Shown: one piece after another, positions 28,597-40,442 of the stretch
Layout of the letters: each line of letters begins with the position of its first letter
Position numbering within the stretch: position 1 is the stretch's first letter
Source: Streptomyces sp. WMMC940
GTDB lineage: Bacteria; Actinomycetota; Actinomycetes; Streptomycetales; Streptomycetaceae
Assembly (NCBI RefSeq): GCF_027460265.1
Contig: NZ_JAPZBC010000001.1
Span: 2,507,501-2,571,500 of the forward strand
Direction of reading: 5' to 3'
Length of the DNA stretch: 64,000 bases
Notes under the pieces: generated by a model
Database searches by the model: none
What the model was told of the DNA's origin: nothing
The model's input: the letters and a program-made list of their open reading frames with translations, nothing else
Position numbers and translations under genes: made by a program

Positions 28597-28700
28597 CGGC
28601 CGCATCGATCGGTGCACGGCAGCACACGGGGGCGCACGGCCGCGGCCGCCGTCAGCGCACCACGGGAAATCGGCGGACCGGCTCGGCTAGGTTCGGTCGC

Positions 28701-30830
28701 ATGACCTCGAAGCAGCGGCTCTCCTTCCCCCGCCAGTACGCCAGGACGCAGCGCTTCACCCTCGGCGCACCCCGCGCGTTCACGGTCGCTCCGGACGGTT
28801 CGCGGGTGGTGTTCCTGAGGTCCCCTTCGGGCACGGACCGATCCCACCGGCTCTGGGTGCTGGACCTCGACGGGGAGGTGCGCGAGCGGGTGGCGGCGGA
28901 CCCCGAGGCGTTGCTGGGCGGCGCGGACGAGGAGTTGCCTGCCGAGGAGCGCGCACGGCGGGAGCGCAGCCGCGAGGGCTCCGGGGGCATCGTCGCCTAC
29001 GCGGTGGACCGCGAGGCGGAGTTGGCGGCCTTCGCCCTGTCCGGGCGGCTGTTCACGGCGGAGCTGCGGGCCGGCACGGCGCGTGAACTGCCCGCCGCCG
29101 GGCCGGTGATCGACCCGAGGCCGTCGCCGGACGGGCGTCTGGTCGCCTACGCGGCGGGTGGCGCGCTGCGCGTCGTCGGCGCGGAGGGCGAAGGGGACCG
29201 GGCGCTCGCCGAACCCGACGACGAGCACACCTCGTACGGGGTGGCGGAGTTCATCGCGGCCGAGGAGATGGGCCGTTCGCGCGGCTTCTGGTGGTCGCCC
29301 GGGTCGGACCGGCTGCTGGTGGCGCGGGTGGACGGCTCCCCCGTGCGGCGGTGGTGGATCGCGGATCCCGCGCATCCGGACCGGGAGCCGGCGGGGACCG
29401 CGTACCCCTCGGCGGGGACGCCGAACGCGGAGGTGCGGCTGCTGCTCATGGACCTCGACGGCACGCGCACCGAGGTGGTCTGGGACCGGGAGCGGTACCC
29501 GTATCTGGCGCGGGTGCACTGGTCACCGGCCGGCGCCCCGCTGCTGCTCGTCCAGACCCGCGACCAGCGCACGGCGCTGCATCTCGCCGTGGACACGGAG
29601 AGCGGAGCCACCCGCACGGTGCACGTCGACGAGGACCCGGCGTGGGTCGAGCTGTCGGCCGGGGTGCCCGCGTGGGCGCCGGACGGGCGGCTGGTGCGGA
29701 TCGCGGACGAGGGCGGGGCCCGGGTGCTGGCGGTGGGCGACCGGCTCCTGACCGGGCCGCAGTTGCACGTCAGGGCGGTCCTGGACATCGACGGGTCGGA
29801 CGTGCTGGTCTCGGCTTCGGCCGGCGAGGAGGCCGCGGAGCCGGAGGTCGGCGAGATCCATGTGTACCGGGTCGACGAGCGGGGGGCCGAGCGGGTCTCG
29901 GAGGGCGCGGGAGTGCACGGGGCGGTGCGTTCGGGGACGGTGACGGTGCTCTCGTCGGCACTGCCCGGGGTGGCGACCGGCGCGGCGGTCCAGGTGCTGA
30001 GGGAGGGCAAACCGATCACCACGATCGCCTCGTACGCGGAGAAGCCGGTTATTTCCTCCCGCGCACAGTTTCTCGAAGGGGGCGCACGGCGAATTCCGTG
30101 CGCCGTGCTGCTTCCCCACGACTATCAGGAATCACATGGTCCGCTTCCAGTGCTGCTGGATCCTTATGCGGGGCCGCACGGACAGCGGGTCGTGGCCGCG
30201 CACCATCCGCACCTCACCTCCCAGTGGTTCGCGGACCAGGGATTCGCCGTGGTCGTCGCGGACGGGCGCGGCTCCCCCGGCCGCTCCCCCGGCTGGGAGA
30301 AGGCGATCAAGGGCGATCTGCTGGTCACGCTGGAGGACCAGATCGAGGCGCTGCACTCGCTGGCCGGCCGGTTCCCGCTGGACCTCGGCCGGGTGGCCGT
30401 CCGGGGCTGGTCCTACGGCGGCTATCTCGCGGCGCTCGCGGTGCTGCGGCGGCCGGACGTCTTCCACGCGGCGGTCGCGGGCGCGCCGGTCACCGACTGG
30501 CGGCTGTACGACACCCACTACACCGAGCGCTACCTCGGCCACCCGGAGGAGCAGCCCGCGGCGTACGCGGCCAACTCCCTCGTCACGGAAGACGGACTGA
30601 CCGATCCGGCCGAGCCCGCCCGGCCGTTGATGATCATCCACGGGATGGTGGACGACAATGTGGTGGTGGCACACAGCTTGCGGCTGTCATCGGCACTGCT
30701 CGCCGCAGGGCGCCCCCATGAACTGCTGCCGCTGACGGGTGTCACACATATGACGCCCCAGGAGCAGGTCGCGGAGAATCTGCTACTGCTCCAGGTGGAC
30801 TTCCTGAAGCGCGCTTTGGGGGTCGCCTGA
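28701..30830 (+). CDS. S9-family prolyl oligopeptidase/dipeptidyl peptidase
   Basis: A 709-residue cytosolic serine peptidase. The N-terminal two thirds form a beta-propeller (repeated segments such as FWWSPGSDRLLVARVDGSPV, VHWSPAGAPLLLVQTRDQR), the C-terminal third an alpha/beta-hydrolase with the nucleophile Ser571 in GWSYGGY. An Asp follows in HGMVDDNVV and the His in GVTHMTPQEQ. Double Glu before the propeller-catalytic boundary (FIAAEEMGR) is the DPP-IV family feature, favouring dipeptidyl peptidase activity. TAGGTT sits 7 nt before ATG 28701 (leaderless). Confidence 0.9.
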   Translation: MTSKQRLSFPRQYARTQRFTLGAPRAFTVAPDGSRVVFLRSPSGTDRSHRLWVLDLDGEVRERVAADPEALLGGADEELPAEERARRERSREGSGGIVAYAVDREAELAAFALSGRLFTAELRAGTARELPAAGPVIDPRPSPDGRLVAYAAGGALRVVGAEGEGDRALAEPDDEHTSYGVAEFIAAEEMGRSRGFWWSPGSDRLLVARVDGSPVRRWWIADPAHPDREPAGTAYPSAGTPNAEVRLLLMDLDGTRTEVVWDRERYPYLARVHWSPAGAPLLLVQTRDQRTALHLAVDTESGATRTVHVDEDPAWVELSAGVPAWAPDGRLVRIADEGGARVLAVGDRLLTGPQLHVRAVLDIDGSDVLVSASAGEEAAEPEVGEIHVYRVDERGAERVSEGAGVHGAVRSGTVTVLSSALPGVATGAAVQVLREGKPITTIASYAEKPVISSRAQFLEGGARRIPCAVLLPHDYQESHGPLPVLLDPYAGPHGQRVVAAHHPHLTSQWFADQGFAVVVADGRGSPGRSPGWEKAIKGDLLVTLEDQIEALHSLAGRFPLDLGRVAVRGWSYGGYLAALAVLRRPDVFHAAVAGAPVTDWRLYDTHYTERYLGHPEEQPAAYAANSLVTEDGLTDPAEPARPLMIIHGMVDDNVVVAHSLRLSSALLAAGRPHELLPLTGVTHMTPQEQVAENLLLLQVDFLKRALGVA

Positions 30831-31180: not shown

Positions 31181-31924
31181 TTATCGGATTTTGGGACTCT
31201 CCGGCCGCCAGTACCCGAGCGCGCTCACCCGGTCCTTGGGCAGGCCGAGCTCCTTGCGTGCGTATGCCGTGAGGGTCCGGGTGGTCGCCGTGTCGCAGGC
31301 GATCCAGACGAAGGCGTCCGCCGGGTCGTCGCCGAGCAGTGCCGGCAGCGCGGCCTTCACCTCCGCCACGAGGGCCGCTCCGCCGTCCTGCCGGGGGACC
31401 CGCCGCAGCTCGTGGTGGGCGGCGCCGGCCCGGAGCGGCAGATCGGCGTCCGACTCGTGCTGGGTCTCGAACCATATGGTGGCGGGCACCCCCGGCATGG
31501 CGTCGAGCAGGGAGTTGACGGCGGGCAGCGAGGCCGAGTCGCCGATCACGAAGAGTCGGGGGGGCAGCGGGTCGGGCACGCTGAACCCGGTGCCCTGGAG
31601 GGTGGCCTCGATCGTGTCGCCCGGCTCGGCGTTGCGCGCCCACTCGCTGGCGCGGCCCTCGTGCAGCGCGAATTCCATGCTGAACGTGCCCTTGGCCGGA
31701 TCGGGGTCGACGAGGGTGTAGGCCCGCTGGTGCGGCTTGCCCGCGTCGTCGAACCAGAGGCGCACCCACATGGTGGGGTGCACCCCGGTGGCGGCGAGCA
31801 TGCCGCCGTCGGTCAGGTGCACCCGGCGGTAGTGGTCGGTGACCTGCTCCGCCCCCGTCACCGTGAACTCGAAGTCCTTGCCCCGGAACAGCTTGAGGAC
31901 CACGCCCTCCCAGCCATGCCCCAC
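31181..31924 (-). CDS. Siderophore-interacting protein (FAD/NADPH ferric-siderophore reductase)
   Basis: A 247-residue SIP/ViuB-family enzyme that reduces imported ferric siderophore to release iron in the cytosol. FAD-binding barrel motifs RRVHLTDGG and YTLVDPDPAKGTFSMEFALH are followed by the NAD(P)H domain (RLFVIGDSASLPAVNSLLD, VWIACDTATTRTLTAYARKE, and the C-terminal GYWRPESP found in SIPs). GTG 31924 has GGAGG 8 nt upstream. Its promoter overlaps the iron box at 31955-31973, so derepression under iron starvation is expected. Confidence 0.92.
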   Translation of the reverse strand: MGHGWEGVVLKLFRGKDFEFTVTGAEQVTDHYRRVHLTDGGMLAATGVHPTMWVRLWFDDAGKPHQRAYTLVDPDPAKGTFSMEFALHEGRASEWARNAEPGDTIEATLQGTGFSVPDPLPPRLFVIGDSASLPAVNSLLDAMPGVPATIWFETQHESDADLPLRAGAAHHELRRVPRQDGGAALVAEVKAALPALLGDDPADAFVWIACDTATTRTLTAYARKELGLPKDRVSALGYWRPESPKIR

Positions 31925-31954
31925 CGCTGTCTCCTCCCCATGCGACCAGTAAGG

Positions 31955-31973
31955 TTAGGTCAGCCTAACCTAA
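31955..31973. promoter_or_regulatory. Iron box (DmdR/IdeR-type operator)
   Basis: TTAGGTCAGCCTAACCTAA is a 19-bp palindrome with one mismatched pair and matches the actinobacterial iron-box consensus TTAGGTTAGGCTNACCTAA. It is 31 bp from the start of the siderophore-interacting protein gene and 31 bp from the GTG of the acylase gene, so one operator can control both. Confidence 0.88.
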
Positions 31974-32003
31974 AGGTTCGTCCAGTAGGAGAGTGGGGAC
32001 AGT

Positions 32004-34097
32004 GTGACGACCGAGGTCTACCGGGATGCCTGGGGCATTCCGCATCTGCGCGCCTCGAGCATCCTGGAGCTGGCCCGGGCCCAGGGGCGGAACGCCGCCG
32101 CCGACCGGGCCTGGCAGATCGAGGTCGAACGGCACCGGGTGCGGGGCACGACGGCGGCCTTCCTGGGCGCGGAGGCCGTGGCCTGGGACCGGTTCGCCCG
32201 GCAGGCCCGGCTCGAGGACACCGCCCGGCGCTGCTTCGCGGCCCTGGACGCGGACACGGCGGCCTGGGTGGGCGCCTACGTCGAGGGAGTCAACGACGGG
32301 CTGGCGGAAGGCACCGGGAACGCGCCCCAGTTCGCCGCCACCGCACTGGAACCCGGCCGCTGGGAACCCTGGGTGCCGCTCGGCATCTGGATCGCCACCC
32401 ACATCCTGTTCGCCGGCTTCCCGACCAAGCTGTGGCGGGAGGAGGTGGCACGACGGCTCGGGGACGAACTGACCACCCTGTTCGCCACCGACGGTCCCGG
32501 CACCTCGGGCAGCAACGGCTGGCTGGTCACCGGCGACCGGACGGGGACGGGAGCACCGCTGATCGCCGGCGACCCGCACCGCTTCATCGAGGACCCCGGT
32601 GTCTACCAGCAGATCCACCTGGTGTGCCCGGACGTCGACGTCGTCGGCCTCGCGGTGCCGGGTGTCCCCGGGCTCGCCCACTTCGGCCACACCGGCTCGG
32701 TGGCCTGGGCCATCACCAACGCCATGGCCGACTACCAGGACCTGTACCGCGAACGCCTCAGGAAAACCGGTGACGGGATCGAGGCCGAGGGCCCCGACGG
32801 CTGGCACCCGGCCACCCACCACCGGGAGACGATCGAGGTGGCCGGGGGGGACCCGGTGACCGTGGAGGTGATCGAGACCGCACGCGGCCCGGTGATCTCC
32901 TGCGACGCCCCGCCGGGGGACGGCAGGGGCGCGATGTCGGAGGCCATCAGCCTCCGCTACCCGCCCCGGGTCACCGCGGCCCTCGGCTTCGAGGCGATCC
33001 CGGCGCTCCTGCGGGCCCGTACCGTCGGCGACGTGGACCGGGCCTTCGACGACTGGGCCGAGCCGGTCAATGTCGTGCACGCCGCGGACACCGAGGGCGG
33101 GCTGCTGCACCGGGTCGCCGGGCGCGTACCGGTACGGCACGAGGACAACCGGCTGCGCGTGGTGCCCGCGTGGGAACACGGCCACGACTGGCAGGGGTGG
33201 CACGGGACGCCCCGTGCCGAGGTGGAGGACTTCGCCGTGATGGCGAACGCCCGCGGCATCGCCACGCCCCTGGGAGTGGAGTTCGCACCCCCGCACCGGG
33301 CCGACCGGATCGCCGCGCTGCTGCGCGAGTCGAAGAACTGGACGGCGCCCGGGATGGCGGCCGTCCACACCGACACCTGGCTGGCGTCCGCCGCACCCCT
33401 GCTGGAGCTGGTGGCCGCGCTGGACGAGGACCGGCTGTCCCCCGGCGCCCGGGCACTGCGGGCCCGGCTGCTGGAGTGGGACCGGCGGATGGAGGCCGAC
33501 AGCACCGACGCCGCGCTGTTCGCCGCCGTCCGCTCGGCCGTCGTACGGCGGCTCGCGGCCCACCCCGAACTGGTGCCGCTGAGCGGCCCGTTCGGGTACC
33601 CCGAGGTGTTCCTGCCCTGGCTCCACCTGCCGGCCAGGATCGGGTACGCGCTGGAGACCCTGCTCACGACCGACCGGCTGCCGGGAATCGACCGCGCGGC
33701 ACTCGTCCACGACGCCGTCGACGAGATCGCCGCGGCCGGCGGGACCGGGACCACCTGGGGCGAGCGTCACCGGCTGGCGCCCTGGCAGGCGCTGCCCGCT
33801 CCCGAGGTCGAGGAGTGGCCCGGGCTGCCCGGCGACCACGACTGCGTGCTGGCCACCTCCAGCGTCCCCGGAGTCACCGATCTGAGCGCGCGCGGACCCT
33901 CCGCCCGCTACGTGTGGGACCTCGCCCGGCGCGACGACAGCCTGTGGGTGGTCCCGCTGGGCGCCCGGGGCGTCCCGGGGGACGCCCACCACCGCGACCA
34001 GCTGCCGCTGTGGCTGAGCGGCGGGTTCGTCCCCGTCGTCACCGACTTCGACCTGCTCACCCCCGAGCACCGCACCGAGGAGAGACATGACCATTGA
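32004..34097 (+). CDS. Penicillin-acylase-family (Ntn) amidohydrolase, iron-box controlled
   Basis: A 697-residue Ntn hydrolase. Autocatalytic cleavage should occur before Ser170 in GTSGSNGWL, giving an alpha chain of 169 residues and a beta chain starting SNGW, the family signature. Other family segments are PLIAGDPHR, GVPGLAHFGHTGSVAW and the oxyanion region EPVNVVHAADTEGG. No signal peptide is visible, so unlike secreted penicillin acylases it should be cytosolic. Relatives include PvdQ, which trims an acyl chain from the pyoverdine precursor, and the proposed DesG for aryl-desferrioxamines. The GTG has AGGAGAG upstream. It overlaps the next gene by 11 nt. Confidence 0.88.
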   Translation: MTTEVYRDAWGIPHLRASSILELARAQGRNAAADRAWQIEVERHRVRGTTAAFLGAEAVAWDRFARQARLEDTARRCFAALDADTAAWVGAYVEGVNDGLAEGTGNAPQFAATALEPGRWEPWVPLGIWIATHILFAGFPTKLWREEVARRLGDELTTLFATDGPGTSGSNGWLVTGDRTGTGAPLIAGDPHRFIEDPGVYQQIHLVCPDVDVVGLAVPGVPGLAHFGHTGSVAWAITNAMADYQDLYRERLRKTGDGIEAEGPDGWHPATHHRETIEVAGGDPVTVEVIETARGPVISCDAPPGDGRGAMSEAISLRYPPRVTAALGFEAIPALLRARTVGDVDRAFDDWAEPVNVVHAADTEGGLLHRVAGRVPVRHEDNRLRVVPAWEHGHDWQGWHGTPRAEVEDFAVMANARGIATPLGVEFAPPHRADRIAALLRESKNWTAPGMAAVHTDTWLASAAPLLELVAALDEDRLSPGARALRARLLEWDRRMEADSTDAALFAAVRSAVVRRLAAHPELVPLSGPFGYPEVFLPWLHLPARIGYALETLLTTDRLPGIDRAALVHDAVDEIAAAGGTGTTWGERHRLAPWQALPAPEVEEWPGLPGDHDCVLATSSVPGVTDLSARGPSARYVWDLARRDDSLWVVPLGARGVPGDAHHRDQLPLWLSGGFVPVVTDFDLLTPEHRTEERHDH

Positions 34098-34707
34098 GGC
34101 ATCCGCAGGACCGGACGGCGCCGAGTCGCTGTACCGGGAGACCGTCGAGGGGCTGGGCACCGTGCACGTGCGGCGGCTCGACCCGGCACGGGACGCGGAC
34201 GTCGTCCACTCCTGGGTCAGCGAGGAGCGGGCCCGCTTCTGGGGCATGCGCGAGACGAGCCGCGACGAGGTCCGGGAGATCTACGAGCACCTGGACTCGC
34301 TCACCACGCACCACGCCTTCCTGATCGTCCTCGGCGACGAGCCCGTGATGCTGTTCCAGACCTACGCGCCGGAAGCCGACCGGGTCGGCGAGTGCTACGA
34401 GGTCGAGCCCGGCGACATCGGCGTCCATCTGATGATCGGACCCACCCAGGGAAGTCCGCGGCCGGGCTTCACCGCCGCCGTGCTCAGGGTGCTCGTCGGC
34501 CATGTCCTGGCCGACGAGGAGGTCCGGCGGATCGTCGCCGAGCCGGACGTCCGCAACGCCAGGGCGATCGAACGGCTGCACCGCACCGGCTTCGAGCTCG
34601 GCCCGGAGATCGTCCTCCCCGAGGTCGACCTGCCCGAGGTGTTCCTCCCGGAGAAGAAGGCCCGGCTGGCCTTCCTGCGCCGGGAGACGGCCGAGACCCT
34701 GAGGTAG
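34087..34707 (+). CDS. IucB/AlcB-type acyltransferase (GNAT, siderophore class)
   Basis: A 206-residue GNAT-fold protein. The segment LDPARDADVVHSWVSEERA near the N-terminus, followed by RFWGMRETS, FQTYAPEADRVGECY, GDIGVHLMIG and IVAEPDVRNARAIERLHRTG, matches the IucB/AlcB/RhbD subfamily, which acylates hydroxylated amines during hydroxamate siderophore synthesis. The DxRNxxAIxxxxxxGF stretch is the acetyl-CoA binding end. It overlaps the acylase gene by 11 nt, so the two are translationally coupled. No siderophore synthetase (IucA/IucC) or hydroxylase is in the window. Confidence 0.87.
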   Translation: MTIEASAGPDGAESLYRETVEGLGTVHVRRLDPARDADVVHSWVSEERARFWGMRETSRDEVREIYEHLDSLTTHHAFLIVLGDEPVMLFQTYAPEADRVGECYEVEPGDIGVHLMIGPTQGSPRPGFTAAVLRVLVGHVLADEEVRRIVAEPDVRNARAIERLHRTGFELGPEIVLPEVDLPEVFLPEKKARLAFLRRETAETLR

Positions 34708-34748: not shown

Positions 34749-35837
34749 TCAGCCCTCCGCCGGCGGCCCGTCGCCGGGCGGCACCACACGCCTCTCCTCG
34801 GCGAAGTGGCACGCCGAGTCGTGCCGCGCGGGACCCCGCACGTCCCTGAACCGCTCCGGCACCGCCAGCTCCGGCTCCTCCCGCGCGCACCGCTCCCGCG
34901 CCTTCCAGCAGCGCGTGCGGAACCGGCAGCCCGACGGGACGTTCGTCGGCGATGGCACGTCGCCGGAGAGGACGATCCGCCCGCCGTTCCCGCCGGCGGC
35001 CGCGCGCCGCTCGCGGAGCGACGGATCGGGGACCGGCACCGCGGACAGCAGGGCCTGGGTGTACGGATGCGTGGGGTGGTCGTAGATCTCGGCGTCGACG
35101 CCGGTCTCCACGATCCGCCCCAGGTACATCACCGCGACCCGGTCCGAGATGTGCCGGACGATCGACAGGTCGTGGGCGATGAACACGTAGCTGAGGCTGA
35201 ACTCGCCCTGCAGCCGCTCCAGCAGATTGACGACCTGCGCCTGGACGGACACGTCGAGGGCGGACACGGGTTCGTCCGCGACGATGACCTCCGGCCGGAG
35301 CGCCAGGCCCCGCGCGATGCCGATGCGCTGGCGCTGGCCCCCGGAGAACTGGTGCGGGTAGCGGTTGACGAACCCGGGGTCGAGCCCGACGACGTCCAGC
35401 AGCTCCCGGACCCGGCGCCGCCGGTCGCCCTTCGGCGCCACCTCGGGATGGATCTCGTACGGCTCCCCGACGATGTCGCCGACGGTCATCCGGGGGTTGA
35501 GCGAGGTGTACGGGTCCTGGAACACCATCTGGATGTTGCGGCGCACGGCCTTCAGCGCCCGCGCCGACAGCCGGGTGATGTCCTCGCCCTTGTAGCGGAT
35601 GCTGCCGCGGGTCGGCCGCTCCAGGTTGACCAGCAGTTTCGCGAGGGTGGACTTCCCGCAGCCGGACTCGCCCACGACGCCGAGCGTCTCACCGGCGAAC
35701 AGGTCGAGGTCGACACCGTCGACCGCACGGACCTCCCCCACCTGTTTCCTGAAGACGATGCCCCGGGTGAGCGGATAGTGCTTGTGCAGACCGCGCACCT
35801 CGATGATCGGCTCGGCCGGCCCGGTCGGCTCAGTCAC
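34749..35837 (-). CDS. Oligopeptide ABC transporter ATP-binding protein (OppF type), distal operon
   Basis: A 362-residue ATPase. Walker [11 protein letters not shown]-loop [17 protein letters not shown], signature [17 protein letters not shown] and Walker [17 protein letters not shown] are all present, and the C-terminal OligoHPY region ([35 protein letters not shown]) is typical of the OppF subunit. The GTG start at 35837 overlaps the upstream OppD stop by 8 nt. Last gene of a five-gene operon. Confidence 0.94.
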
Positions 35838-36879
35838 GGAGGCACTCCCTCCAGAAGAAGCAGGCGCTCCCGCGGTCGCGGCTCACCTCGGACAGCTCCG
35901 GCTCGTCGGTCCGGCACACGTCCCGCGCCATCGGGCAGCGCGGGTGGAAGGCGCAGCCGGGCGGGACGTCCATCGGGTTCGGCGGCAGCCCCTTGATGGC
36001 GTAGAGCTCCTCGCCCTTGCGGTCCAGGCGGGGGATCGAGTCGAGCAGTCCGCGGGTGTACGGATGGGCCGGGGCCTTGTAGAGGTCGTGGACGGGGGCC
36101 GTCTCGACGATCCGGCCCGCGTACATCACCGCGATCCGGTCGGCGACGTCCGCGACCACCCCGAGGTCGTGGGTGATGAGGACGAGTCCCATACCCAGTT
36201 CGCGGCGGAGCTCTGCGAGGAGGTCCATCACCTGCGCCTGGACCGTCACGTCCAGGGCGGTCGTGGGTTCGTCGGCGATGATCAGATCCGGTTCCAGGGC
36301 CAGCGCCATCGCGATCATGATGCGCTGGCGCATCCCGCCGCTGAACTGGTGCGGGTACTGGCCGACCCGCTCCCCCGCGGCCGGGATGCGGACCCGGTCC
36401 ATCAGCTCGACGGCCTTCGCCCGGGCGTCCTTCCGCGACATGCCGCGGTGCACGGTGAACATCTCGCCGAGCTGGTCGCCGACGGTCAGCACCGGGTTCA
36501 GCGAGGACAGCGCGTCCTGGAAGACCATGGCCATTCCCGCACCGCGGATCTTCCGTCGTTCGTCCTCCTTCAGCTTCAGCAGGTCCCTTCCCCGGAAAAG
36601 GACCTCCCCGCCGGTGATCCGGCCGGGCGGGGTGTCGAGGATGCCCATGACTGCCTGGGCGGTGACCGACTTCCCGGAGCCGGACTCGCCGAGCACCGCC
36701 AGGGTCTCGCCCGCGCCGACGGACCAGGAGACGCCGTCGACCGGCCTGGCGATCCCGTCGCGGGTGCGGAACTCCACACACAGGTCCCGCACTTCGAGCA
36801 GCGTGCCGGGACGGGCGGACGGAACGGCCGGTCCCCGCGCTCGTGTGCCGGGACCGTCGGACGGCGGGTCGGTGGTCAT
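35830..36879 (-). CDS. Oligopeptide ABC transporter ATP-binding protein (OppD type), distal operon
   Basis: A 349-residue ATPase with Walker [30 protein letters not shown], signature [15 protein letters not shown] and Walker [18 protein letters not shown]. The C-terminal OligoHPY domain ([36 protein letters not shown]) has Cys pairs often seen in OppD proteins with Fe-S-like motifs. It forms a heterodimer with the OppF-type subunit encoded next (8-nt overlap) and starts 11 nt after the permease stop. Confidence 0.94.
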
Positions 36880-36890
36880 GGCGGTGCTCC

Positions 36891-37871
36891 TCAGCGCAGC
36901 TTGGGGTCGAGGGCGTCGCGGACCGCGTCGCCGAGCATGATGAACGCGAGCACGGTCACGGCGAGCGCACCGGCCGGCCAGAGCAGCATGTGCGGGGCGT
37001 TGCGGATGTACGGCGACGCGGCGGAGATGTCGATCCCCCAGGACACCGTGGGCGGCCGCAGCCCGACCCCGAGGTACGACAGGGTCGCCTCCAACGAGAT
37101 GTACGTCCCGAGCGCGATGGTGGCGACGACGATCACCGGCGCCACGGCGTTCGGCAGGACGTGCTTCAGCAGCAGCCGCGCCGGCGAGGCGCCGAGGGCC
37201 CGGGCGGCCTGCACGTAGTCGTTCTGCTTGACGGTGATCACCGAGCCCCGGGCGATGCGGGAGATCTGCGGCCAGCCCAGCAGCACCATGAACCCGATCA
37301 CCGGCCAGACGGTGTTGCTGGTGACGACGGAGAGCAGCACCAGCCCGCCGAGGACCACCGGGACGGCGAAGAAGACGTCGGTCAGCCGGGACAGCAGCGC
37401 GTCCGGGGCCCGGCCGAAGAAACCGGCCAGCCCGCCGAGTACGGACCCGAGGAGCGCCACCCCGAGCGTGGCGCAGACGCCGACGGTCACCGAGGTGCGG
37501 GCGCCGTGGACGGTCCGGGTGTAGACGTCGCAGCCCTGGCCGTCGAAGCCGAAGGGATGGCCGGGCTGGGAGCCCTGCTGGGCCTTGGCCAGGTCGCAGT
37601 CGAGGGGGTTGCCGGAGGCGATCAGTTGCGGCCAGATCGAGATGACGACCAGGAAGAGGATGACGAGCGCCGCGATGACGAACACGGGGTTGCGGCGCAG
37701 ATCGTGCCAGGCGTCGGACCACAGGCTGCGCGGTCTGCCGGCGGGACCGGACCCGGGCGGGCCGGCGGGCGCCTTCTCCAGGGTCTCGCCCTCGGCGGTG
37801 GCCAGGTCCATGGCTCCGCCGCCACCGGTCGGCGCGATGGCCCCTCCGCCGTCGTACTGGGCATCAGGCAT
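36891..37871 (-). CDS. Oligopeptide ABC transporter permease (OppC type), distal operon
   Basis: A 326-residue membrane protein. After a Gly/Pro-rich N-terminal tail come RSLWSDAWHDLRRNPVF, a first helix (VIAALVILFLVVISIWPQ), a substrate-binding-domain-like insertion and five further helices; the coupling EAA loop is DYVQAARALGASPARLLLKH. The C-terminal FIMLGDAVRDALDPKLR is the DppC/OppC signature. The ATG overlaps the stop of the preceding permease by 8 nt. Confidence 0.93.
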   Translation of the reverse strand: MPDAQYDGGGAIAPTGGGGAMDLATAEGETLEKAPAGPPGSGPAGRPRSLWSDAWHDLRRNPVFVIAALVILFLVVISIWPQLIASGNPLDCDLAKAQQGSQPGHPFGFDGQGCDVYTRTVHGARTSVTVGVCATLGVALLGSVLGGLAGFFGRAPDALLSRLTDVFFAVPVVLGGLVLLSVVTSNTVWPVIGFMVLLGWPQISRIARGSVITVKQNDYVQAARALGASPARLLLKHVLPNAVAPVIVVATIALGTYISLEATLSYLGVGLRPPTVSWGIDISAASPYIRNAPHMLLWPAGALAVTVLAFIMLGDAVRDALDPKLR

Positions 37872-38787
37872 AGCGGATCCTCGGGTCGAGTACGGCGTAC
37901 AGCAGATCGACGAACAGGTTCACCAGCAGGAACACCAGCACCAGCACCGTCACGAAACCGACGACCGTCTGGGTGTTCTGGCGGAGGATGCCCTGGTAGA
38001 GCTGGTAGCCGACACCATGGATGTTGAAGATCCGCTCGGTGACGATGGCCCCTCCCATCAGGGCGCCGATGTCGGCACCGATGAAGGTGACCACCGGGAT
38101 CAGCGAGTTGCGCAGCAGATGGTGGGTCATGACGCGGTGGCGGGGCAGGCCCTTGGCGACGGCCGTGCGGACGTAGTCGGCGCGACGGTTCTCGGCGATG
38201 GAGGTCCTGGTCAGCCGGGTGACGTAGGCGAGCGAGACGGCGGCGAGGACGAGTCCGGGCACGATCAGCTCGTCGAGCGGGGCCTCGGAGGACACCGAAG
38301 GCCGGATCCACCCCCACTTCACACCCAGCAGGAGTTGCAGCAGCAGCCCGGTGACGAAGGTCGGAACGGCGATCACGACCAGGGTTGCCAGCAGTACGCC
38401 GGTGTCGGCGGGACGGCCGCGGCGCAGTCCGGTGAGCACGCCGAGGCCGATGCCGATGACGATCTCGAAGACGATCGCCACCAGGGTGAGCCGGACGGTG
38501 ACCGGGAAGGCGTCGGCCATCAGCTCGGTGACCGGCTGCCCGTTGAAGGCGGTACCGAAGTCCCCGGTGAAGACGTTGCCCATGTAGGTCAGGTATTGCT
38601 GCCAGACGGGCTTGTCGAGGCCGAACTCCTTGCGCAGCTGAGCCGCGGTGGCCGGGTCGCACTCCCGCTCGCCGCAGAGCCCGGCGATCGGGTCGCCCAT
38701 CACGTTGACCATCAGGAAGATCAGCAGCGTGGCTCCGACGAAGACCGGGATCATCTGGAGCAGACGCCGGATCACATAACGTCCCAT
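37864..38787 (-). CDS. Oligopeptide ABC transporter permease (OppB type), distal operon
   Basis: A 307-residue six-helix membrane protein beginning MGRYVIRRLLQMIPVFVGAT, the standard OppB/DppB N-terminus. The EAA loop is AVAKGLPRHRVMTHHLLRNS and the end LLVNLFVDLLYAVLDPRIRY is typical. It contains an unusual Cys pair in the first periplasmic loop (GLCGERECDP), absent from the paralogue in the proximal operon. It starts 29 nt after the binding-protein gene and overlaps the OppC-type gene by 8 nt. Confidence 0.93.
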   Translation of the reverse strand: MGRYVIRRLLQMIPVFVGATLLIFLMVNVMGDPIAGLCGERECDPATAAQLRKEFGLDKPVWQQYLTYMGNVFTGDFGTAFNGQPVTELMADAFPVTVRLTLVAIVFEIVIGIGLGVLTGLRRGRPADTGVLLATLVVIAVPTFVTGLLLQLLLGVKWGWIRPSVSSEAPLDELIVPGLVLAAVSLAYVTRLTRTSIAENRRADYVRTAVAKGLPRHRVMTHHLLRNSLIPVVTFIGADIGALMGGAIVTERIFNIHGVGYQLYQGILRQNTQTVVGFVTVLVLVFLLVNLFVDLLYAVLDPRIRYA

Positions 38788-38816
38788 GAGGCGCTCCTCG
38801 GGTCCGGGCGGGTTCG

Positions 38817-40442
38817 TCAGCCGACGGTGATCTCTTCGTAGACGGGGACGCTGAACTGGTTCAGGGAGACGTTGGAGATCCGCTCGGAGTAGCCGGCGCT
38901 GCCGTTCTGGTACCAGAGCGGGATGGCCGCCATCTGGTCCCGTACCACGCCCTCCGCCTGCTTGAAGATCTCGACCGCCCGGGCGGGGTCGGTCTCCGCG
39001 TTGGCCTGGTCGACCAGCCGGTCGAACTCCTCGTTGCTCCACTTGCCGTCGTTGGAGGAGGCGTTGGTGTAGTAGAGCGGCTGGAGGAAGTTCTGGATGA
39101 GCGGGTAGTCCATCTGCCAGCCCGCCCGGAAGGGGCCGCTCATCTTCGACCGCGTGATCTGATTGCGGTAGTCGGCGAAAGTGCCGACGGGATTGCCGAC
39201 GCAGGCCCGGTCGTTGGCGAGCGCGTTGTTGATGGAGTTGCACACGGCGTCGACCCACTCCTTGTGGGAGCCGGTGTCGGCGTTGTACGTGATCTTCACC
39301 TGGCCGCCGGGGATGCCGCCGCCCTCGGCGATCAGCTTCCTCGCCCGGGCGGGGTCGTAGGTGCACGAGCCGCCGCACAGCGACGCGTCGTAGCCCCCGT
39401 CGGGGCCGAGGACCGGCGAGGTCCAGTCCTTGGCGGGGGTGCGGGTCCGCTGGAAGATCGTGTCGGTGATCTGTTGTCGGTCGATCGCCATGGACAGGCC
39501 CCTGCGGACCTTCTCCTGCCCGGGTTTGTTCCAGTCCGGGTCGTAGTACGGGAAGGCGATGGTCTGGATGATGCCGGCCGGGGTGTTGATGTACCGGTCG
39601 CCGAGGTCGGCTTCGACGTTCCTGAGCTGGGACGCCGGCACGTCGTCGACCAGGTCGAGGTGTCCCGCCGTCAGGTCGGTGTAGGCGGTGTTGCTGTCGG
39701 TGTAGACCATCAGGTCGACGCCGCCGTTGCGCGCCTTGTCGTCACCCGGATAGCCGTCCCAGCGGCGCAGGGACATCCGGGAGCCCCTGGTGTAGCTGTC
39801 GACGGCGTACGGACCGTTGCCGACGGGGCGGGCCAGCCAGGCGTCGTGGTCGGAGAAGAAGCTGCTCGGCAGCGGCGCGAAGGCGGCGTAGCCGAGGGTC
39901 TCGGGCCAGGTGGAGAACTTCTGGGTCAGCTTGACGGTGAACGTCCGCTCGCCCGTGACCTTCAGCCCGGACATGGTCTGCGCGGTGGGCTGTCCGGACG
40001 CGGGATGGACCTGGTCGTATCCCTCGATGTAACCGAAGAAGTAGGCGTTGCGCTGGTTGTTCCCCAGATGCGCGCCGTAGTTCCAGGCGTCGACGAAGGA
40101 CTTCGCGGTCACGGGCTCGCCGTTGGAGAAGGTCCAGCCGCTCTTGACCGTGACGGTGAAGTCGACGGAGTCGGTCGTGTCGATCCGCTCGGCGAGCATG
40201 TCCTCGGCCTCGCCCGTCTTCGGGTCGTAGCGCTTCAGTCCCCGGAAGATCATGTCGAGGACCTTGCCGCCCTGGACCTCGTTGGTGTTCGCCGGTTCCA
40301 GGGGGTTCTGGGGATCTCCCCAGGACGACGTCACGATCCCGTCCGGGCCGTCTGCGGGGGCTCCGCCGCCCCCGCAGGCACCGGCCGCGAGGACGACGGC
40401 GACCGCGCAGGCGGCCCTGGTGACGTGAGCGGCTCCGCGCAT
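38817..40442 (-). CDS. Peptide-binding lipoprotein of the distal Opp operon
   Basis: A 541-residue SBP_bac_5 family lipoprotein. The signal peptide ends in the lipobox LAAGAC; the mature protein contains the family blocks DPQNPLEPANTNEVQGGKVL, FTVTVKSGWTFSNGEPVTA, NGPYAVDSYTRGSRMSLRRW and a C-terminal MAAIPLWYQNGSAGYS. It should capture oligopeptides outside the membrane and deliver them to the adjacent permeases. It is one of two tandem copies; the other is at 45142-46758. Upstream lies a 535-nt region without genes. Confidence 0.93.
   Translation of the reverse strand: MRGAAHVTRAACAVAVVLAAGACGGGGAPADGPDGIVTSSWGDPQNPLEPANTNEVQGGKVLDMIFRGLKRYDPKTGEAEDMLAERIDTTDSVDFTVTVKSGWTFSNGEPVTAKSFVDAWNYGAHLGNNQRNAYFFGYIEGYDQVHPASGQPTAQTMSGLKVTGERTFTVKLTQKFSTWPETLGYAAFAPLPSSFFSDHDAWLARPVGNGPYAVDSYTRGSRMSLRRWDGYPGDDKARNGGVDLMVYTDSNTAYTDLTAGHLDLVDDVPASQLRNVEADLGDRYINTPAGIIQTIAFPYYDPDWNKPGQEKVRRGLSMAIDRQQITDTIFQRTRTPAKDWTSPVLGPDGGYDASLCGGSCTYDPARARKLIAEGGGIPGGQVKITYNADTGSHKEWVDAVCNSINNALANDRACVGNPVGTFADYRNQITRSKMSGPFRAGWQMDYPLIQNFLQPLYYTNASSNDGKWSNEEFDRLVDQANAETDPARAVEIFKQAEGVVRDQMAAIPLWYQNGSAGYSERISNVSLNQFSVPVYEEITVG

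Follow-up and report, generated by a model that had tools for sequence, protein, structure and literature searches.

The 64,000-nucleotide stretch of Streptomyces sp. WMMC940 DNA analysed here (the window) contains a cassette of three genes, desJ, desG and desH, coding for a siderophore-interacting protein (SIP), an acylase of the N-terminal nucleophile (Ntn) type and an N-acyltransferase. The cassette is the counterpart of the desJGH genes of Streptomyces coelicolor, and very probably tunes desferrioxamine synthesis through an exchange of acyl groups by DesG and DesH on the siderophore monomer. As the locus was published in 2025 together with its regulation and phenotype, the core finding is already known and amounts to a rediscovery; the identity of the genes, the iron box between them, the co-occurrence of desG with the desferrioxamine synthetase gene desD and the make-up of the DesG active site are established below. 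What the analysis adds is a concrete residue-level prediction (Arg193) for the unproven DesG step. This matters because desferrioxamine B is a drug against iron overload, and in S. coelicolor desGH sets the ratio of desferrioxamines B and E (PMC12161575).

Gene content of the cassette

31181..31924, minus strand: desJ, siderophore-interacting (ferric-siderophore reductase-like) protein, 247 aa (Pfam SIP)
31955..31973, no strand: 19-bp iron box (DmdR1-type operator), TTAGGTCAGCCTAACCTAA, between the divergent desJ and desG starts, one mismatch to the palindrome
31986..31988, plus strand: in-frame TAG stop fixing the N-terminus of the acylase (reading-frame inspection)
32004..34097, plus strand: desG, cytosolic Ntn-type acylase (S45/penicillin amidase family), 697 aa (Pfam; AlphaFold2 model)
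32511..32513, plus strand: Ser170 codon, predicted N-terminal nucleophile (β-1) after self-cleavage between G169 and S170; Ser in 128/128 loci
32580..32582, plus strand: Arg193 codon (β-24), predicted clamp for the succinyl carboxylate; Arg in 128/128 loci
34087..34707, plus strand: desH, IucB/DesC-type GNAT N-acyltransferase, 206 aa (Pfam PF13523)

The divergent arrangement of desJ and desG and the 11-nt overlap of desG with desH (34087-34097) had been recognized in an original prediction made from the letters of the window alone; its coordinates hold and Pfam agrees with its assignments. DesJ matches SIP (PF04954, 1.5e-21) and FAD_binding_9 (3.8e-11), residues 3-681 of DesG match Penicil_amidase (PF01804, 1.8e-155), and DesH matches Acetyltransf_8 (PF13523, 1.6e-47). 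DesH is 36% identical to DesC of the same genome, where DesF shares 29% identity with DesJ across 186 columns. Among solved chains the nearest to DesJ (31181-31924) is an ABC transporter chain (6tej, 2.1e-35), followed by chains of the mycobactin importer IrtA (1.1e-32), such that importer chains of the IrtA type and not free-standing SIPs are its closest solved relatives.

The in-frame TAG lies 18 nt upstream of the GTG start at 32004, and none of the five codons between them is a start codon. With the acylase domain starting as early as residue 3 and a highest hydropathy of only 0.21 for any 19-residue segment within residues 1-50, no space is left for a signal peptide, and DesG should accordingly be a cytosolic enzyme. 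The absence of a signal peptide and the nucleophile Ser170 in the motif GSNGW, both noted in the original prediction, are thereby borne out.

The iron box and regulation

The box between the desJ and desG starts differs at one position from a perfect palindrome that we take to be the consensus, in line with its earlier description as near-perfect. It is the sole site in the window with three or fewer mismatches, and none appeared in 100 shuffles of the window. In the whole genome of 7,665,203 bases an equally good box recurs at one place, inside the desferrioxamine cluster, while a control with the reversed pattern gave 0 sites. The box is also conserved, as the original prediction required: with a search zone from 300 bases upstream of desG to 30 bases inside it and up to three mismatches, it was found in 71 of 80 desG relatives from named genomes, the top-ranking ones among at least 579, against 0 of 660 random 330-base stretches drawn from 110 loci outside the region upstream of desG. 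Seven of the nine loci without it carry desC/desD or desE (L026, L031, L035, L037, L042, L044 and L064); in the other two, desG lies behind non-ribosomal peptide synthetase (NRPS) genes (L039) or there is a poorer match with six mismatches (L069). Under low iron a DmdR1-type repressor would leave the box, allowing desJ and desGH to be transcribed; given the box, such iron-dependent transcription, reported for S. coelicolor, is expected for the window genes.

Correspondence to desJGH of Streptomyces coelicolor

Augustijn et al. (June 2025; PMC12161575, cited throughout from part of its text) found SCO4048-4050 in the DmdR1 regulon and named them desJGH. In that work a desG mutant made about 1000-fold less desferrioxamine B and a desH mutant about 16-fold less, with desferrioxamine E rising in both; the mutants were complemented, and a desJ mutant made more desferrioxamine B. 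The metabolite profile of an acylase mutant, which the original prediction had named as decisive, has thus been published for S. coelicolor with a positive outcome. The need for the locus in making desferrioxamine B in vivo is demonstrated for S. coelicolor only, and would carry over to the window cassette by analogy. In the text of PMC13011467 available to us the operon is only mentioned.

The window and S. coelicolor proteins were compared by published residue numbers and lengths, not by sequence. On this basis, W61 of DesG and W43 and Q91 of DesH, which had been mutated to stops, recur in the window proteins with unchanged numbering, and W53/Q66 of DesJ keep the 13-residue spacing of W55/Q68 in SCO4048. 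The shared W61, W43 and Q91, together with the DesH length of 206 aa, link the window cassette directly to desJGH. Common to the two loci are the gene content, the link to an iron box, the pairing of DesG with DesH and the length of DesH; in contrast, the window DesG is about 85 aa shorter, DesJ has 247 instead of 241 aa, and the neighbor of desJ is an S9 peptidase gene in the window but an HhH-GPD gene (SCO4047) in S. coelicolor (PMC12161575). The published rule for a desG/desH locus places desG (PF01804) and desH (PF13523) at most 1 kb apart (PMC12161575); the window genes lie within this distance, have the box and share their genome with desABCD. The cassette is not at the chromosomal place of SCO4048-4050, but we do not treat place as defining because desG is reported both within des clusters and at a separate DmdR1-controlled locus (PMC12161575).

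Active site and substrate preference of DesG

An alignment of 128 loci (117 distinct; groups L006-085, L086-115 and L131-148) shows the residues of an S45 Ntn hydrolase, namely S170, H192 (β-23), the oxyanion residue N415 and R432 (β-263), to be invariant in all 128. In alignments with the β chains of 4HSR and 35sz, Ser170 falls on their first residue; 35sz, listed without a substrate, is the nearest solved sequence to DesG. The AlphaFold2 model of DesG (predicted TM-score 0.81) has the D-succinylase 7eby as its nearest fold; since the model is weak at the active site, we make no docking claim. Among structures of known substrate, the best matches are D-succinylase over the full length and a class III glutaryl acylase among β chains. 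The bond cleaved in the D-succinylase substrate is presumably an amide, not a hydroxamate. This enzyme, from Cupriavidus sp. P4-10-C (7eby/7ea4), is an 824-residue chain acting on D-amino-acid derivatives (PMC11241749). The class III glutaryl/cephalosporin acylase of the Pseudomonas N176 type (4hsr) is 33% identical to DesG over the β chain, with its Arg24 and His57 aligned to R193 and H226; it differs in having His at β-70, where DesG has Asn, and in its substrate, a β-lactam amide.

The position β-24 is occupied by Arg in 4HSR (R24) and in D-succinylase (R305), and by F, V or W in penicillin G acylases, PvdQ and MacQ (PMC11241749, Table 1). In our reading of the same table, an acyl-pocket Arg, at β-24 or at the β-57 place of class I, is present in 4/4 glutaryl/succinyl entries and 0/6 others. 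DesG has such an arginine, R193 at β-24, as do D-succinylase and the class III glutaryl acylase, which supports de-succinylation by DesG. Taken together, the structural matches and these residues point to DesG being a succinyl-specific hydrolase, with Arg193 in its pocket, that would act on a hydroxamate; it is from them that we infer both the reaction and the role of Arg193. His226 (β-57) was also considered as the class I Arg place and dropped, as Table 1 of PMC11241749 puts Pro56 of 4HSR there.

The original prediction had cited PvdQ as a precedent, but D-succinylase and the class III glutaryl acylase are nearer to DesG. PvdQ is an Ntn acylase of the same family, which removes a fatty acyl group outside the cytosol in the pyoverdine pathway. 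Its match to DesG is weaker (best 2.3e-13), its β-24 residue is Phe, DesG scores only 27.1 bits against the PvdQ model NF051460 of NCBIfam (cut-off 950), and DesG lacks the signal peptide of PvdQ-type exported acylases. The ranking of matches and the β-24 residue thus disfavor a PvdQ-like or aryl-acylase function. A literature search on acylase pocket mutants found no PvdQ paper.

Association of desG with desH, desJ and desD

Among the 80 relatives, desH lies within 3 kb of desG in 75; the five loci without it are L013, L017, L025 and L039, belonging to a sister clade that we call DesG2 (see below), and L085, which ends at a contig end. A second set of 30 further loci, partly the same genes as the 80, gave the box in 30/30, desH in 28/30 (the two exceptions, L090 and L091, are both DesG2) and desJ in 20/30. 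As desJ is beside desG in only 40 of the 80 loci, the strict three-gene set of the original prediction is rejected, and desJ is better regarded as optional.

The co-occurrence with the desferrioxamine genes, which the original prediction had put forward for testing, was scored with desD as marker in 199 Streptomyces genomes (desG at E<=1e-50, desD at E<=1e-100), and proved strong. Of 114 genomes with desG and 156 with desD, 113 had both; one had desG only, 43 desD only and 42 neither (Fisher p 4e-18, uncorrected for kinship). At most 5 candidates were scored per genome in the genus search for desG and 2 in the class sample described below, and negatives are soft. The tie predicts that the 43 genomes with desD and without desG make only uncapped desferrioxamines. 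In the single exception (G012) the desG and desJ matches consist of pieces in different frames, Gly replaces the nucleophile, and the whole hence looks like a remnant; with no desD match in the genome, the degenerate desJ and desG (L163:6319-7684) look like a joint loss of the pathway.

In a class-wide sample, 66 of 394 genomes had a desG match at E<=1e-40, 40 of them outside the genus. A DesD relative (E<=1e-40) was present in 32 of these 40; in 26 of those it was no more than 10 kb away from desG, and in 17 no more than 1 kb. Of the remaining eight, four have weak matches of 35-39% identity (G217, G238, G519 and G578), which are probably other acylases, and four have proteins about 50% identical. 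Since G258, G316, G407 and G507 encode a DesG-like acylase without a DesD match, DesG alone is no proof of desferrioxamine function, and its use as such in other families was rejected. A FAD-oxidoreductase-like gene is found near the DesG-like acylase in G258, G316, G407 and G344 (the G258 gene was scanned), and a DesH/DesC-like gene follows the acylase in G390 and G344. In another actinobacterial family (loci L159, L160, L161, L164 and L165), acylases about 50% identical to DesG have nearby either a FAD-oxidoreductase-like gene, scanned in L159, or a gene for a sensor histidine kinase, scanned in L164; a DesH/DesC-like gene lies behind the acylase in L164 and L165, and DesD matches are absent from the genomes that carry L159, L160 and L161.

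Proposed mechanism and alternatives

The genes desA, desB, desC, desD, desF and desE form one run with two boxes (G000:C1:4873159-4880401, with desABCD at 4873159-4878260), 2.33 Mb from the cassette. We propose that N-hydroxy-N-succinylcadaverine (HSC) is a product of this distant cluster and, if left alone, would be cyclised by DesD to desferrioxamine E. The cytosolic, self-cleaving DesG would bind the succinyl carboxylate, putatively through Arg193, and hydrolyse the hydroxamate to free N-hydroxycadaverine, on which DesH, in the most likely reading, would place an acetyl group instead of the succinyl removed. DesJ probably reduces the ferric siderophore and would be dispensable. This agrees with the published model, in which N-hydroxy-N-succinylcadaverine is converted to N-hydroxy-N-acetylcadaverine (PMC12161575). 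The idea in the original prediction of taking one acyl group off and putting another on is in essence that model, except that the target is the monomer and not the finished siderophore.

DesG could instead act after assembly, stripping the terminal succinyl from a linear desferrioxamine of the G1 type, whereupon DesH would acetylate the freed N-hydroxy group to give desferrioxamine B. End product and mutant phenotype would be the same, and the β-24 Arg pocket suits any succinyl hydroxamate; however, the desH mutant retains some desferrioxamine B, ascribed to acetylation of the monomer by DesC (PMC12161575), and we regard action after assembly as unlikely.

The window cassette, though homologous to desJGH, might also serve a different siderophore of the same genome. 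The clade of its DesG joins that of DesG2 from NRPS loci (SH-aLRT 98, by a quick method), its chromosomal place and flanks differ, and the genome has two other IucA/IucC loci. On the other hand, unlike DesG2 the cassette retains desJ and desH, a full desABCD cluster is present in the genome, and just one DesG match there reached E<=1e-50 among the 5 scored of 20 candidates, such that service to another siderophore appears quite improbable.

An earlier proposal for desG, first linked to phenylacetic acid-capped forms as recounted in PMC12161575, would have DesG transfer acyl groups to make aryl- or fatty-acyl-capped desferrioxamines. Membership in the penicillin-amidase family agrees with it, but arylated desferrioxamine was never identified in S. 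coelicolor (PMC12161575), β-24 is Arg in DesG as against Phe or Val in penicillin G acylases (PMC11241749, Table 1), and penicillin G acylase β chains match DesG far more weakly than the class III glutaryl acylase does; we consider it very doubtful. Least probable is the breakdown or remodelling of imported foreign siderophores after reduction by DesJ, also raised in the original prediction: a SIP gene beside the same box and a cytosolic acylase would fit it, but desG tracks the desferrioxamine synthetase (113/114) and outside the genus often adjoins it (17/32 within 1 kb), desJ is next to only 40/80 desG genes, and the mutant effects fall on the strain's own desferrioxamines (PMC12161575).

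The DesG2 clade

Of 88 candidate rows one was excluded by length; in the tree of the remaining 87 DesG sequences, the window clade of four rows is sister to the five DesG2 rows, at the support given above, and the five DesG2 group together with 100. These genes, all without desH, are:

L013:3261-6118, DesG2 gene
L017:3234-6148, DesG2 gene
L025:3297-6106, DesG2 gene
L039:3968-6079, DesG2 gene
G128:C2:1897351-1900246, DesG2 gene

Four of the five are divergent from an isochorismatase gene (PF00857, 2.8e-28 to 8.7e-36 in all four proteins) with a box in between, and two of these four genomes have an NRPS gene no more than about 10 kb away. One is the GQFP genome (L013), where the NRPS gene, 5638 codons long, ends some 3 kb from desG2 and shows adenylation, carrier and condensation domains in its first 999 residues, the part scanned; the other is G128, whose NRPS gene of 3670 codons is within 6 kb, along with two further boxes. 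The desG2 of L039 comes immediately after adenylation/carrier, thioesterase and chorismate-binding domains. A second desG match occurs in 4/5 DesG2 genomes (WAC05374 (L034), S. lateritius (L059), G079 and G128), with none seen in S. geranii. No report of DesG2 turned up in a limited literature search (acylase and isochorismatase genes) or in the available part of PMC12161575, whose rule required desH within 1 kb of desG. We tentatively suggest that the acyl-editing enzyme may have been recruited a second time, with the same Arg-bearing pocket, into NRPS siderophore pathways, the window cassette belonging to the DesGH lineage nearest to this recruitment; DesG would then not be solely a desferrioxamine tool.

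Genomic context

On its two sides the window cassette has a gene for an S9 peptidase and genes for a dipeptide ABC transporter (28698-30830 and 34749-39378), and among these adjoining genes there is no siderophore synthetase, consistent with the original prediction. In a comparison of 110 loci with flanks of 1.5-4 kb, counterparts of the flanking genes with at least 83% identity were confined to L006, L007, L008, L087 (one flank) and L086, which is the window's own copy, while L009 has a 36% match to the window ABC gene. As the flanks are shared only within a close clade, the cassette is at a different place than in most relatives. Elsewhere in the genome two more IucA/IucC pairs (G000:C1:1819889-1823362 and 6893761-6896151) represent other NRPS-independent siderophore (NIS) clusters, the second of which is accompanied by iron-box-like sites at 6890636 and 6897904.

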